From Candidatus Hydrogenedentota bacterium (GTDB taxonomy: Bacteria; Hydrogenedentota; Hydrogenedentia; Hydrogenedentales; JAJRTN01), in contig JAJRTN010000030.1 of assembly GCA_024278275.1 (NCBI GenBank), forward strand, positions 1 to 63,256: 63,256 nt of DNA, given 5' to 3'. Under the pieces are notes generated by a model. It did not search any database. It had not been told where the DNA came from and saw nothing but the letters and a program-made list of their open reading frames with translations. Shown piece after piece: positions 9,272 to 49,300 of the stretch (positions are counted from its first letter, which is position 1; each line of letters starts with the position of its first letter). A program made the translations under genes and the position numbers.

Positions 9272-10325
9272 ATGACTGAAAACAACGATTTTTCCCTGAA
9301 CTGTCCCATCCCCCTCAACCCGACGGATCATATTACCATGGCCCATGGCGGGGGTGGGGCCGTGATGCAGCGTCTTATTGAGAACGTCTTCTTCAATGCC
9401 TTTGACAACCCGCTTTCCGGGCAGCAGCACGATGCCGCCTGTTTCGAGCCGGGGGGGAAACGGCTGGCCTTCACCACGGACTCTTACGTGGTGCAGCCCC
9501 TTTTTTTTTCCGGGGGGCGATATTGGCGCCATGGCGGTCCATGGCACGGTGAACGACCTTGCCATGGCGGGCGCGCGTCCGCTGTACCTCAGCGCGGGCT
9601 TTATCCTGGAAGAGGGATTGCCCATGGAGACTTTGCAGCGTGTGGTCGCGTCCATGGCGGAGGCAGCCCGCCGTGCTGAGGTCGCCATCGTGACGGGTGA
9701 CACGAAGGTCATCAACCGCGGCGGCGGCGACGGCATGTACATCAACACCGCGGGGGTCGGCGTGGTGGGGGAGAGGTGCCGCATCACGCCCGGCGCCATT
9801 CGCGAAGGTGACCGCATCGTTATCAATGGCGATTTGGCCCGCCACGGCATCGCCATCATGGCCATCCGCGAGGGCCTGGCTTTCGAGACCGCCATTGAGA
9901 GCGATTCCGCGCCGGTCGCCCATGAAGTGCTGGCGCTGCTGGATGCCGGAATCGAGGTTCATTGTCTGCGCGACCTGACCCGCGGCGGTCTGTCGAGCAC
10001 CGCCAACGAGCTGGCGAAGGCCGCCGATGTGACCATCCATCTGACCGAGACCGCCATTCCCGTGCGTGAAGACGTGCGGGGTGCCTGCGAACTGCTCGGT
10101 TTCGACCCCCTCTACGTGGCGAACGAAGGCCGTTTCGCCGCTTTCATTCCCGAAGTCTGCGCGGAACGCGCTGTCGAGGTGCTTGAGAAGGCGGGCGCGG
10201 AACAGCCCTGCATCATCGGCCGAGTGAGCGCCGCCCGCCCCCCCCGGGTGGTACTCCAGAGCCAAATCGGCACCGAGCGCATTCTCGACATGTTGAGCGG
10301 CGAACAACTCCCCCGGATTTGCTGA
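9272..10325 (+). pseudogene. hypE: HypE hydrogenase maturation protein, frameshifted at a T9 run
   Basis: HypE dehydrates a carbamoylated C-terminal cysteine to thiocyanate, supplying the CN ligands of [NiFe]-hydrogenase. Two overlapping frames together encode a complete 350-residue HypE. The first gives the N-terminus ([38 protein letters not shown]). The second continues with [25 protein letters not shown] and LRDLTRGGL, and ends in the diagnostic PRIC tail. The switch falls in a run of nine T (9501-9509); eight would restore one frame. The cause may be a true mutation, a sequencing error, or slippage on the homopolymer giving some full-length protein. The ATG at 9272 is preferred over 9224 because the latter is inside a repeat. 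No other hyp or hydrogenase gene is in the window. Confidence 0.88.
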
Positions 10326-43627: not shown

Positions 43628-44770
43628 ATGAAGATCCATGAGTACCAGGCGAAAGAACTCTTCAAGGAGTTCGGCATCGTCACAACCGATGGCGAGGCCG
43701 TCTCGACGGCGGAGGAAGCGGTCAAGGCCGCCGAGGGCATGGGACTGCCGGTGGTCATCAAGGCCCAGGTCCATGTCGGTGGGCGAGGCAAAGCCGGTGG
43801 CGTGAAGGTGGTCACCGAGGCCGCCGAGGTGCGTCCCACGGCGGAGAAGATCCTGGGCCTGACCATCAAGGGGCTGCCCGTGCGCAAGCTGCTGGTGACG
43901 CCCGCCGTGGATATCGCCAAGGAGGTCTACCTGAGCATCCTCGTGGATCGTGGCGCGCGGACGGTGGTCTTTATCGGCTGCGCCGATGGCGGCGTGGAGA
44001 TCGAGGAAACGGCCAAGACCGCGCCGGAGAAGATCCTACGCCTGGAGGTGAAGGCCAGTGAGTTGACCCGCCTCCCCTTGGACCAACTCCGCGATTTTGC
44101 CGCGAAACTTTTCACCGGGGAAAGCCAGGTGAACGAGGCGGCCGACATGATGGCCCGCATGGGCAAGCTCTTCCGCGAGAAGGATTGCTCGCTGGTCGAG
44201 ATCAACCCGCTGGTGGTAGACGGCGCGGGCAAGGTGGTGGCCCTGGACGCGAAGGTGCTGCTTGACGACAACGCCTTGCCGAACCACCCGGAGCTGGAGC
44301 CGCTCCGCGACATGGATTCGGAGGACGAGGACGAACTGAAGGCCAAGGACGCGGGCCTCAGCTTCATTCGGCTGGATGGGGACATCGGTTGCATGGTCAA
44401 TGGCGCGGGCCTGGCCATGGCCACCATGGACACGATCAAGCACTTTGGCGGCGATCCGGCGAATTTCCTCGACGTGGGCGGCAGCTCGGATCCGAAGAAG
44501 GTGGTCACCGCCTTCCAGACCATTCTGAAAGACCCGAACGTCAAGGTTATTCTCATCAATATTTTCGGCGGTATTACCCGCTGCGACGATATCGCCAAGG
44601 GCATCCTGGCGTCGCTGGAACAGCTCGACGTGGCGGTGCCCATCGTGATTCGCCTCATTGGCACCAACCAGGAGGAAGGACGTAAGTTGCTCGAAGGAAC
44701 GAAACTCATTGGCGCGAACACGCTGGAAGAAGGGGCCACCAAGGCGGCCAAGATCGGAGGTGCGGCATGA
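43628..44770 (+). CDS. sucC: Succinyl-CoA ligase (ADP/GDP-forming) beta subunit
   Basis: A 380-residue subunit of the TCA-cycle enzyme that couples succinyl-CoA cleavage to nucleotide triphosphate synthesis. [16 protein letters not shown] start, ATP-grasp domain (about 1-235, [18 protein letters not shown]), Mg-binding [10 protein letters not shown], and a CoA-ligase domain with [23 protein letters not shown] lies 8 nt before the ATG. It overlaps sucD by 4 bp (ATGA), a clear co-translated pair. Confidence 0.97.
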
Positions 44771-45627
44771 GTATCCTGATTGATGCCAACACGAAGGTCA
44801 TTGTACAGGGCATTACCGGCCGCGACGGTTCCTTCCATACCGGCCAGATGATCGATTACGGCACGCGGATCGTGGGCGGCGTGACCCCCGGCAAGGGCGG
44901 CCAGGAAATCCACGGCGTGCCCGTCTTCAACAGCGTGCCCGAAGCGGTGGAAGCCACCGGGGCCGATACGTCGGTGATCTACGTGCCCGCCCGATTCGCC
45001 AAGGCCGCCATGCTCGAAGCCGCGCAGGCGCCCCTCAAGCTGCTCGTGGTGATTACCGAAGGCGTGCCCACCCTCGACGCGCTGGAGGCCTACGAACTGC
45101 TCCAGGAAAAAGGCATCCGCATGATCGGCCCCAACTGCCCCGGCCTCATCACCCCCGGCCAGTGCAAGATCGGCATTATGCCCGCCCCCATCCACGCCCC
45201 CGGCAAGGTGGGTGTCATTTCCCGCAGCGGCACGCTGACCTACGAGATCGTGAAGGAACTCACCGACGCCGGTCTCGGGGAATCCACCTGCATCGGTATC
45301 GGCGGCGATCCCGTCATTGGCAGTAAGTTCATCGATCTGCTGCCCCTCTTCGAGGAAGACCCCGAGACGGAGTCGGTCGTCATGGTCGGTGAAATCGGCG
45401 GACAGGACGAAGTCGTCGCGGCGGAATATGTGCAAAAGCACATGACCAAGAAGGTGGTGGGCTTTATCGCCGGCGTCACCGCGCCTCCCGGTCGCCGCAT
45501 GGGCCACGCGGGTGCCATCGTGGGCGGGGAAGACGATACCGCCGCCGCTAAAACCGCCAAGCTCGAAGCCGCCGGTATCCCCGTGGCCAGACTCATCAGC
45601 GAGGTGGTGACGCTCCTGAAGGGATAG
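44767..45627 (+). CDS. sucD: Succinyl-CoA ligase alpha subunit
   Basis: A 286-residue partner of SucC. Rossmann CoA-binding N-terminus ([24 protein letters not shown]), then the ligase domain with [11 protein letters not shown], the [10 protein letters not shown] motif, and the phospho-histidine loop in [15 protein letters not shown]. Standard length. The tail [14 protein letters not shown] matches the family. Confidence 0.97.
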
Positions 45628-46428: not shown

Positions 46429-47286
46429 ATGGGCAACAACCTGTTTCTCCGGCTCGAAGAAGTTCTTGGCGTTCGCGCCGGGAAAGCCCGTCCCCTCGGC
46501 GGCGGGTGCATCGGCGAGGTGCATTCCGTCGACCTGGAAAACGGCGACCGGGTGGTGGTGAAGGTGGACCGAAGCAGTACGCCCCGCCTCGATGTGGAGG
46601 GCTATATGCTCCAATACCTCGCCGGCCACAGTGCCTTACCCGTCCCCGCCGTGCGCCACAGCAGTCCCGGCCTGCTGGTCATGGACTTTATCGAAGGGGA
46701 CAGCCGTTTCGGCGAGGTCGAACAACGCCATGCGGCCGAGTTGCTGGCGGCCCTGCATGAGGTCCGGGGCGAAACCCATGGTTTTGAGCGCCCCACCCTC
46801 ATCGGCGCATTGCACCAGCCCAATCCACCCACCGATTCCTGGGTGGCCTTCTTCCGGGATGCGCGCCTGCTTTACATGGCCGATGAAGCGTTGAAAGAGC
46901 GGCGTCTGCCCCGGGAAGTGCATAAGCGTCTTCGCGCCTTCGCGGACCGCATCGGGGAGTTCATCGAGGAGCCCGAGTATCCTTCACTTCTCCATGGCGA
47001 TGTGTGGACCACGAACGTCCTCGCCCACGGCGGGCGCATCACCGCCTTTATCGACCCGGCGATCTACCATGGCCACCCGGAAATTGAATTGGCCTTTACC
47101 ACGCTCTTCGGCACCTTTGGCCCATCCTTTTTCAAGCATTACGACGACATCCGCGGCATACGCCCCGGCTTCCTGGAAGAGCGACGCGACATTTACAACA
47201 TGTATCCTCTGCTCGTCCATGTGCGGCTCTTTGGCGACAGCTATCTCGGCGGTATCGATCAGACCCTCCGGCGCCTGGGCTTTTGA
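46429..47286 (+). CDS. Fructosamine/ketosamine-3-kinase family protein
   Basis: A 285-residue kinase of the aminoglycoside-phosphotransferase fold. Features: GGGCIGEVHSVDL nucleotide loop, VVVKVDR lysine, catalytic SLLHGDVWTTNVL, metal-binding FIDPAIYHGHPEIELAF. These match the fructosamine-3-kinase family, which phosphorylates sugar adducts on protein lysines so that they fall off. AAGGG lies 8 nt before the ATG. Paired with the upstream phosphatase (1-nt gap), it may form a two-step deglycation unit for glycated proteins. Bacterial members prefer ribulosamine or erythrulosamine; the actual substrate here is not known. Confidence 0.93.
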   Translation: MGNNLFLRLEEVLGVRAGKARPLGGGCIGEVHSVDLENGDRVVVKVDRSSTPRLDVEGYMLQYLAGHSALPVPAVRHSSPGLLVMDFIEGDSRFGEVEQRHAAELLAALHEVRGETHGFERPTLIGALHQPNPPTDSWVAFFRDARLLYMADEALKERRLPREVHKRLRAFADRIGEFIEEPEYPSLLHGDVWTTNVLAHGGRITAFIDPAIYHGHPEIELAFTTLFGTFGPSFFKHYDDIRGIRPGFLEERRDIYNMYPLLVHVRLFGDSYLGGIDQTLRRLGF

Positions 47287-47474
47287 AAAGGTTTGAAGAG
47301 GCTTGTCGTGCGCTTCGCGGTAGCCCTCCAGATGTAATCATCTTTTGAATGTGGCACAGCCTTCTCCTCCCCGTCACCCCCTGCCGGCCCATGGTCCCGG
47401 ACGCGCGAAGGGTTGGCATTTTCCATTACGCCAATATCCCATGCTACCATCCGGTATTGGGAGGAGGAAATGCC

Positions 47475-48488
47475 ATGCGGAACGTGGGGCTGAACGAGAC
47501 GCTTGATCTTTTGGTGGTGGGCGCGGGACCGGCGGCGCTGGTGGCCCTGCACGAGGCCAAGGCGCGGGGACTGCGGGCTGTCGCCATGGACAAGGGCCCC
47601 GTGTGCAGCGCCCTGATGAAACACCCCACGTACATGCGCTGGTTTTCCACGACGGACAAGCTGGAGCTGGCCGGTTTCCCCCTGCTGGTGAACGAGAAAA
47701 ACCCTACGCGCGAGGAGTACCTGCGCTACTGCCGGGCTTTCGTGGACTACTTCGCGCTTGAGGTGCTGACCTACCGCGAAGTCACCGCCGTCATCCCCCT
47801 CGACGGTCTTTTCCGCGTCGAGGCGCTGGACATGTTCGGTCGTACCTACGCATGGCGCGCCCTGAATGTCGTGTTGGCCACGGGATTCTATGACAGTCCG
47901 CGGCCCTTGGGCGTGCCCGGAGAGGACCTGCCCAAGGTGTCGCACCGCTACACGGAAGCCCACGGTTACGCGGGGCACGATGTGCTGGTTGTGGGCGCGG
48001 GTTCTTCCGCGGCGGAAGTGGCGCTCGAATTGTACCGTGCGGGCGCGCGGGTCACCGTGGCCATGCGGGGCGAGCGCTTCCAGACAAAGTATTGGGTCGA
48101 GCCGGACATTGAAAACCGCATCCGGGAGGGTTCCATCGTTTGCCACCGGAACGTGGAGGTGACGGCCATCGAAGCGGATGCCGTGCTGCTCAAGGATGAT
48201 CATGGCCGGGAGGTTTCCGTGCCCAATGACTTCGTGCTGGCCATGACAGGCTATGAACCGGACACGACGATCCTGGAGCGCGCCGGGGCGGAGGTGGATC
48301 CCGGGACAAAGAAACCCACCCTCACGGAGAACTTCGAGACCACGGTGCCCGGGCTTTACGTGGCGGGCACGCTTTGCGCCGGTTGTGACTCCAACGTCGT
48401 TTTCGTTGAGAACAGCCGGGAACACGGGCCGCGTATCGTGGCGCATATTGCGGGGCGGAAGTTGTCTTCCGGCCACGCCGAGGAGTAA
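47475..48488 (+). CDS. ypdA: YpdA-family FAD-dependent (bacillithiol-disulfide-type) reductase
   Basis: A 337-residue flavoprotein. FAD-binding VVGAGPAALVALHEAKARGL, the family-specific stretch HPTYMRWFSTTDKLELAGF, NADPH-binding VVGAGSSAAEVALELYRAG, and the C-terminal VPGLYVAGTL followed by CAGCDSN. YpdA reduces bacillithiol disulfide in Firmicutes, but the family is broader than bacillithiol makers, so the thiol here is open. A GAGGAGG ribosome-binding site sits 7-8 nt before the ATG. The broken comB follows after 6 bp and is probably in the same operon. Confidence 0.9.
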   Translation: MRNVGLNETLDLLVVGAGPAALVALHEAKARGLRAVAMDKGPVCSALMKHPTYMRWFSTTDKLELAGFPLLVNEKNPTREEYLRYCRAFVDYFALEVLTYREVTAVIPLDGLFRVEALDMFGRTYAWRALNVVLATGFYDSPRPLGVPGEDLPKVSHRYTEAHGYAGHDVLVVGAGSSAAEVALELYRAGARVTVAMRGERFQTKYWVEPDIENRIREGSIVCHRNVEVTAIEADAVLLKDDHGREVSVPNDFVLAMTGYEPDTTILERAGAEVDPGTKKPTLTENFETTVPGLYVAGTLCAGCDSNVVFVENSREHGPRIVAHIAGRKLSSGHAEE

Positions 48489-48494
48489 TCCCCC

Positions 48495-49226
48495 ATGTGG
48501 TGGCATATTATCGAAGGGGAAGCGGGGTGTGATTATGCCCGGGAACGTGGTTGCGTGGCCGTGGTGGTGGACGCCTTGCGTGCCAGCGCCACGGCGGCCA
48601 TGCTGCTGCACCATGGCGCGCGGTCCATCCTGGCGGTGCGCGAGGTGGAAGAGGCCCTGACCGCGAAAACGAAACATGCTGACGCCCTGTTGTTCGGCGA
48701 ACGGGGCGGTCTTCCTCCCGAGGGCTTTGATTTCGGCAACAGTCCTTTGTAAACCCCGGAGGCGCGGGGCCGCGACGTGATCTTCACCACCACCACCGGC
48801 GCGGGGCGTCTCGTGTCGGCCTGGGGCGCGGCGGCCCTCTATCTTGGCACCACGGTTAATGCCAGGGCGGTCGCGGAACGCACGGCCGCGCACGGCACGG
48901 ACGTGGTGCTGATCCCGGCCGGTCTCACCGGTAACCCGGACTTCGACGCCCAGGAAGACCGTGCCGCCGCGGTGGCCATCGCCATGGTGGCGGATATCGC
49001 TATCGGCGAAGGTCGGGACCTTTATGATTGCTGGGCACCGCGCATCGAGACGGAGGGCCTGAACGCGCTTTTCCGTGGCGCGCCCCATGCCGCCAAGCTT
49101 CGCGCCATTGGAAAAGACGCGGATATTGATTTCTGTGCCCGCATGGACATAACGGACGCCGTGCCCCGGGGCGTGTTGCGCGAGGGCGTGGGGATACGAA
49201 TGGTGCGGGCGAATGAAACAGGGTAA
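48495..49226 (+). pseudogene. comB: 2-phosphosulfolactate phosphatase ComB, interrupted by in-frame TAA
   Basis: ComB removes phosphate from 2-phosphosulfolactate. One reading frame from 48495 to 49226 would encode a complete 243-residue ComB: VVVDALRASATAAMLL, LLFGERGGLPPEGFDFGNSPL, FTTTTGAGRLVSAWGA, LIPAGLTG and a normal C-terminus. It is split by a TAA at 48750-48752 (codon 86), just after GNSPL, where the family usually has an acidic residue. A GAA to TAA change (one G to T) would explain it. Nothing else is damaged and the frame downstream is intact. A recent nonsense mutation, a sequencing error or read-through are the options. No other CoM or sulfolactate gene is near. Confidence 0.85.
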
Positions 49227-49229
49227 CGG

Positions 49230-49300
49230 TTCACGGACCAACGTAGAAGCGGCTTCCACCCGCTTCGAATGCGGCAGGATGCCGCATCCATGTTACCCTT
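49230..49300 (+). repeat. Modular hairpin repeat (family 1), degenerate fragment
   Basis: ACGTAGAAGCGGCTTCCACC followed by GCTTCGAATGCGGCAGGATG: the GTAGAAG module with its right arm lost. Confidence 0.5.

Follow-up and report, generated by a model that had tools for sequence, protein, structure and literature searches.

The closest known counterparts of the gene described here are the ComB proteins of the 2-phosphosulfolactate phosphatase family (PF04029; solved relatives are 1vr0, 2z0j and 2yyv). The gene shares with them a match to the whole domain profile, the invariant residues and the predicted fold; it differs in that it is interrupted by a stop codon, falls below the cut-offs of all NCBIfam ComB equivalog profiles, and belongs to a genome without ComA above cut-off. 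Recent nonsense pseudogenes of bacteria carry a single stop in a frame that is otherwise intact, as this comB does. In contrast to these, at least nine genes are hit here in about one fifth of the genome, priA among them, and comB itself shows no other decay.

Stops can also arise from errors in an assembly. Such premature stops share with ours that they stand alone in genes that are otherwise whole, scattered over a single assembly. In one study, shortened proteins served as a sign of errors in a long-read assembly (PMC6785717); the errors described there are insertions or deletions, whereas the stops here are substitutions, a frameshift in a hypE-like gene excepted. Reassignment of stop codons is known in bacteria and phages (PMC8629427). 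Conserved genes with in-frame stops are common to that system and ours, but here all three stops are involved, at low frequency, they still serve as terminators, and no matching tRNA was found. In the sections of the literature that our search brought up, we found no report of internal stops in Hydrogenedentota, which is a weak statement.

The interrupted comB-like gene

The window, by which we mean the whole stretch of 63,256 nucleotides analysed, is contig C183 of a Hydrogenedentota assembly of 5.35 Mb in 200 contigs (up to 132 kb; 96.2% complete). The features of the comB locus are the following.

47469–48488, forward strand: YpdA-type putative bacillithiol disulfide reductase, upstream of comB, start codon uncertain (TIGR04018)
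48495–49226, forward strand: comB-like gene (PF04029, 2-phosphosulfolactate phosphatase family), interrupted at codon 86 (Pfam match, fold)
48495–48749, forward strand: N-terminal half, 85 codons, ending directly 3' of the GNSP motif (PF04029 profile positions 14–81, 80.1 bits)
48750–48752, forward strand: in-frame TAA, codon 86 of 243, seen in the sequence and missing from 71 other PF04029 matches
48753–49223, forward strand: C-terminal half, same frame, without a further stop (frame translation)
48758–48779, forward strand: candidate restart site, GGAGG at 48758–48762 and GTG at 48777–48779, poorly spaced (sequence; ORF 48777–49226)

The preliminary description had reported an in-frame TAA in the middle of comB, and our analysis confirms it: the frame opens with ATG at 48495, meets the stop at codon 86 of 243, and continues to the terminal TAA at 49224–49226. 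Where a ComB gene should have one uninterrupted frame, the window gene thus has a TAA, placed just after the GNSP motif and within predicted helix 84–90. The read-through product of 243 residues gives a single PF04029 match that spans the stop (residues 21–225, 150.5 bits against a cut-off of 26.4). Both halves exceed the cut-off on their own, the stretch 48777–49223 alone covering profile positions 93–222 of 226 with 53.8 bits. Because the halves fit successive parts of the profile and the remaining two forward frames across comB contain several stops each, we rejected a chance boundary of two genes at the TAA. At third codon positions the GC content of the halves is 0.71 and 0.78, and that of three neighbouring genes 0.75–0.82. 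The predicted structure is a single compact domain (mean pLDDT 96.5) that resembles 1vr0 and 2z0j with a TM of about 0.8; the only structures found by sequence were these two and 2yyv/2yzo. Judging from profile match and predicted fold, the window gene is a member of the ComB family, with a phosphatase activity that is only putative.

We searched for PF04029 in the window's own genome and 99 others, 67 of them from the same order and none from the same family. Of the 67 genomes from the same order, 61 have a match, as do 7 of the 32 more distant ones; five of the six same-order genomes without a match are less than 90% complete. No internal stop occurs in any of the 71 PF04029 matches outside the window, whose copy is the sole case among 72. 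A second comB, a possibility raised in the preliminary description, was not found, the window gene being the single PF04029 match in the whole genome. For the alignment, 35 order-level sequences were set beside the window gene (L033, a duplicate of L031, was excluded; L029 and L032 are identical as proteins), and eight distant ComB sequences were compared separately, one of which, L008, likewise comes from a same-order genome. Order-level relatives carry E (14), D (8), T (5) or R (2) at the stop site, and N, Q, G, S, L and H once each, while all eight distant sequences carry E. Since 22 of the 35 have an acidic residue there and 8 of 8 distant sequences have E, the proposal that the stop replaces a usually acidic position holds, although the position is variable inside the order; as also proposed, a single base change is sufficient to turn a Glu codon into TAA.

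The rest of the gene is well preserved, and the alignment bears out the view that the frame on either side of the stop encodes one continuous, conserved ComB. The window sequence retains all 36 positions that are invariant in the 35 relatives and all 64 that are at least 90% conserved; in a leave-one-out count, six of the 35 relatives likewise kept 100% of the conserved positions. No second stop, frameshift or loss of a conserved residue was seen in comB. In a neutral simulation, the chance of an equally clean gene falls to 5% at about 2% divergence when the 64 sites are used and at 3–4% when the 36 sites are used, so that a real mutation in comB would have an age of less than roughly 2–4% neutral divergence. 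In the tree, window comB groups next to a pair of f11-family sequences, though with support under the mark, and its end branch is 0.34 against a median of 0.28. Residues invariant in the 43 aligned sequences occur both N- and C-terminal of the stop, and the 85-residue product is therefore expected to be non-functional.

The two pieces could in principle be made separately, the second being translated from GTG 48777, and then assemble. GGAGG and GTG do lie within 27 bases after the stop and would open a second ORF of 149 codons. The gap of 14 bases between them is long, however, and the GGAGG belongs to ordinary codons. Moreover, the cut would fall inside helix 84–90 of a single compact predicted domain, with invariant residues of the 43 sequences flanking it on either side, and the gene is not split in any relative. 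We regard a split comB as the least probable of the explanations considered, with hardly any weight.

The surroundings of comB say something about its possible role. The upstream neighbour matches TIGR04018 with 344.2 bits (cut-off 339.9), and a YpdA-type gene adjoins comB in 15 of 36 order-level loci, where flank lengths differ greatly. ComA (PF02679) was above cut-off in none of 68 genomes, the window's own included; one of the 68 has a sub-threshold match, and the own genome has none. Because no ComA above cut-off was found in the genome, the gene content does not support a part for ComB in making coenzyme M here, and the PF04029 family probably has another role in this phylum.

Some further observations concern the window itself. 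An antisense open frame of 666 codons (47259–49259, reverse strand) lies opposite ypdA and comB, and another of 526 codons (43927–45507, reverse strand) lies opposite genes that we take to be sucCD-like; both are probably a by-product of GC-rich codons. A gene at 9272–10322, which we presume to be HypE-like, shows an apparent frameshift in a run of nine T (9501–9509). Its second piece contains AIRS and AIRS_C domains in a frame whose start corresponds to position 31 of the AIRS profile; the N-terminus likely lies in a different frame.

Isolated stops elsewhere in the assembly

We scanned the assembly for stops with same-frame coding sequence on both sides, over 463 kb, 863 kb and then 1,155,460 bases (about one fifth of the genome), which gave 21, 43 and 60 candidates; of the initial 21, three did not recur. 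Most of them look like ordinary gene ends. Sixteen candidates besides comB were chosen by eye from more than 60 and searched in Pfam with the stop read as X, and the remaining ones were assigned to ordinary gene ends by eye. Since the 16 were picked in this way, the gene count is a lower bound from an uneven sample. At least eight genes besides comB carry one isolated stop in the 1,155,460 bases, six identified by Pfam and two by relatives (contig and position are given).

C197:5966: carbamoyltransferase, stop spanned by one Pfam match
C186:19556: integrase-family recombinase, stop spanned by one Pfam match
C186:43794: sulfatase, stop spanned by one Pfam match
C82:60476: TIM-barrel isomerase, stop spanned by one Pfam match
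C3:5969: peptidase M3/PepF, stop spanned by one Pfam match
C117:19579: GH65/95-type hydrolase, stop spanned by one Pfam match
C196:38799: PriA, continuity shown by relatives
C186:64950: TPR protein, continuity shown by relatives

With comB, the stops inside these nine genes are TAA in four, TAG in four and TGA in one. For PriA, the TPR protein and PepF alike, 18 of the 19 other genomes had a match (for the TPR protein, only a partial one in three of them). Across 106 relative sequences of the seven interrupted genes searched, no stop was found inside the gene. Eight relatives were flagged (L178, L184, L192, L201, L205, L245, L253, L264), but their stops lie outside the gene proper, before the likely start, either upstream of the aligned part or in its first 21 codons. 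A stop in L208 appears only in a secondary, repeat-shifted alignment, and none is present in its main match listing. This check covered matches with a locus, which two flagged distant recombinase matches from G009 and G015 lack. We did not count GH2, beta-helix, Ig-like-domain and GH42 proteins, an efflux protein (whose Pfam match starts just three residues ahead of the stop), a methylase, a zf-HC2 protein and a protein that we label URO-D-like by assumption, no family having been found for it; these look continuous by eye, with no Pfam match clearly across the stop.

As a control, we scanned 400 kb from three relatives (G014, G004, G010) and 400 kb from three more (G008, G012, G009). These gave 21 and 26 candidates, and a Pfam search of all 47 found no match across a stop in the 800,000 bases; many of them resemble antisense frames or simply the end of a gene. 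From the scanned lengths, the chance of nine against none at equal rates is about 0.9%, and that of six against none, when comB and the two genes known from relatives only are set aside, is about 4%. An excess of isolated stops in this assembly over its relatives is therefore likely, with a modest contrast and some doubt. Isolated lesions in excess across unrelated genes are what an assembly artefact would be expected to leave, and this is what the scans show, at that modest contrast. A homology-based count of nonsense sites and frameshifts (863 kb of the own genome, 400 kb of relatives) was also tried. In either direction only some 40 kb was covered, with six nonsense sites in the own genome, comB included, eight in the relatives, and the one frameshift in the window. 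We dropped it as a measure because the listed matches, apart from comB and the frameshift, resemble antisense frames.

Possible decoding of the stop

If the stop were read through or recoded, full-length ComB would be made. The conservation that persists in both halves of comB would fit this idea, as would the internal stops in additional genes of the assembly and the fact that Glu is found in relatives at every one of the eight sites inspected. The decoding apparatus argues the other way. In the 41 tRNA matches of the assembly, ARAGORN read 41 anticodon types, all of them sense, in a set that is incomplete (tRNA-Ile is missing). Four release-factor-domain matches are present without an internal stop, and two of the release-factor frames, with 363 and 413 codons, are as long as one would expect for RF1 and RF2. 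Long ORFs, some of which are possibly antisense frames, end in TGA (178), TAG (116) and TAA (91); all three stops also occur inside genes, and none is preferred there. Another stop in the same frame, at most five codons further on, followed 43 of 385 long ORFs in the own genome and 19 of 167 in three relatives. Recoding is very improbable in our judgement, because neither a suppressor tRNA nor an excess of tandem stops nor a preferred stop codon was found; the argument of the preliminary description against a change of the genetic code is upheld, with sense-only anticodons and all three stops closing long ORFs. We give similarly little credit to the broader idea that this Hydrogenedentota lineage would tolerate scattered stops, perhaps former Glu codons, through leaky decoding that yields ComB and PriA at full length.

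Besides tRNA-Ile, tRNA-Ala with anticodon TGC was not found among the 41 matches. Both tRNAs often sit in rRNA operons, which assemblies of short reads tend to lose.

Origin and meaning of the stop

The preliminary description of an interrupted comB is supported as a whole; it had left the choice between sequence error and pseudogene to be made. With at least eight more genes carrying isolated stops, the likely cause shifts from comB to the assembly or its source population. We propose that the TAA is a single-base defect of the deposited sequence, one of many isolated stops, in an otherwise ordinary comB and without a function of its own, a reading to which we assign a probability of about 0.55. 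The base could be a wrong consensus call or a minor strain allele adopted by the assembler, and the cause would then sit in the assembly rather than in the cell. If cells do carry the TAA, an 85-residue stub would be made, which should be inactive. Several findings favour the artefact: the genes hit include ones not expected to be lost together (priA, pepF), all three stop codons are involved, comB is otherwise pristine, and the relatives' sequences at the eight aligned genes have no internal stop. The frameshift in the T9 run of the window's hypE-like gene also fits an imperfect sequence. Against it stands simple arithmetic: were all nine stops in 1.16 Mb errors, about 3 bases in 10,000 would be wrong, a high rate for the consensus of contigs that reach 132 kb.

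Mainly because of that implied error rate, we retain as a tentative second choice, behind a wrong or minor-allele base, that the stop is a genuine nonsense mutation of very recent date. In that case comB would be a young pseudogene and perhaps one of many in a population under weak selection. One substitution suffices for this, and no other change leads to a stop as often in this genome as G-to-T at Glu codons. ComB may also be dispensable, as 6 of the 67 same-order genomes have no match and ComA was not found above cut-off. The lack of further decay in comB weighs against a real mutation, such cleanness being only 5% likely at about 2% or 3–4% neutral divergence, depending on the sites used. 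It would also require that several unrelated genes, priA included, were all freshly broken.

An origin of the stops through oxidative damage (G to T) is permitted by the Glu or Gly found at eight sites, yet other residues are commoner at several; at the TGA site of PriA, Gly occurs in 4 of 18 relatives. We claim no damage signature, since chance alone would also produce stops in this genome most often by G-to-T (69.7 of 261 per 1000 codons).

The interrupted comB looks like an ordinary finding, either an artefact or a fresh pseudogene, with no new decoding. The point worth keeping seems to be the excess of isolated stops in this assembly, where a single stop should not be taken as evidence of a lost or recoded gene until reads have been consulted. 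Should reads bear out the stops in priA, pepF and comB together, the lineage would count among the rare bacteria that live with internal stops in many genes, and it would merit study.
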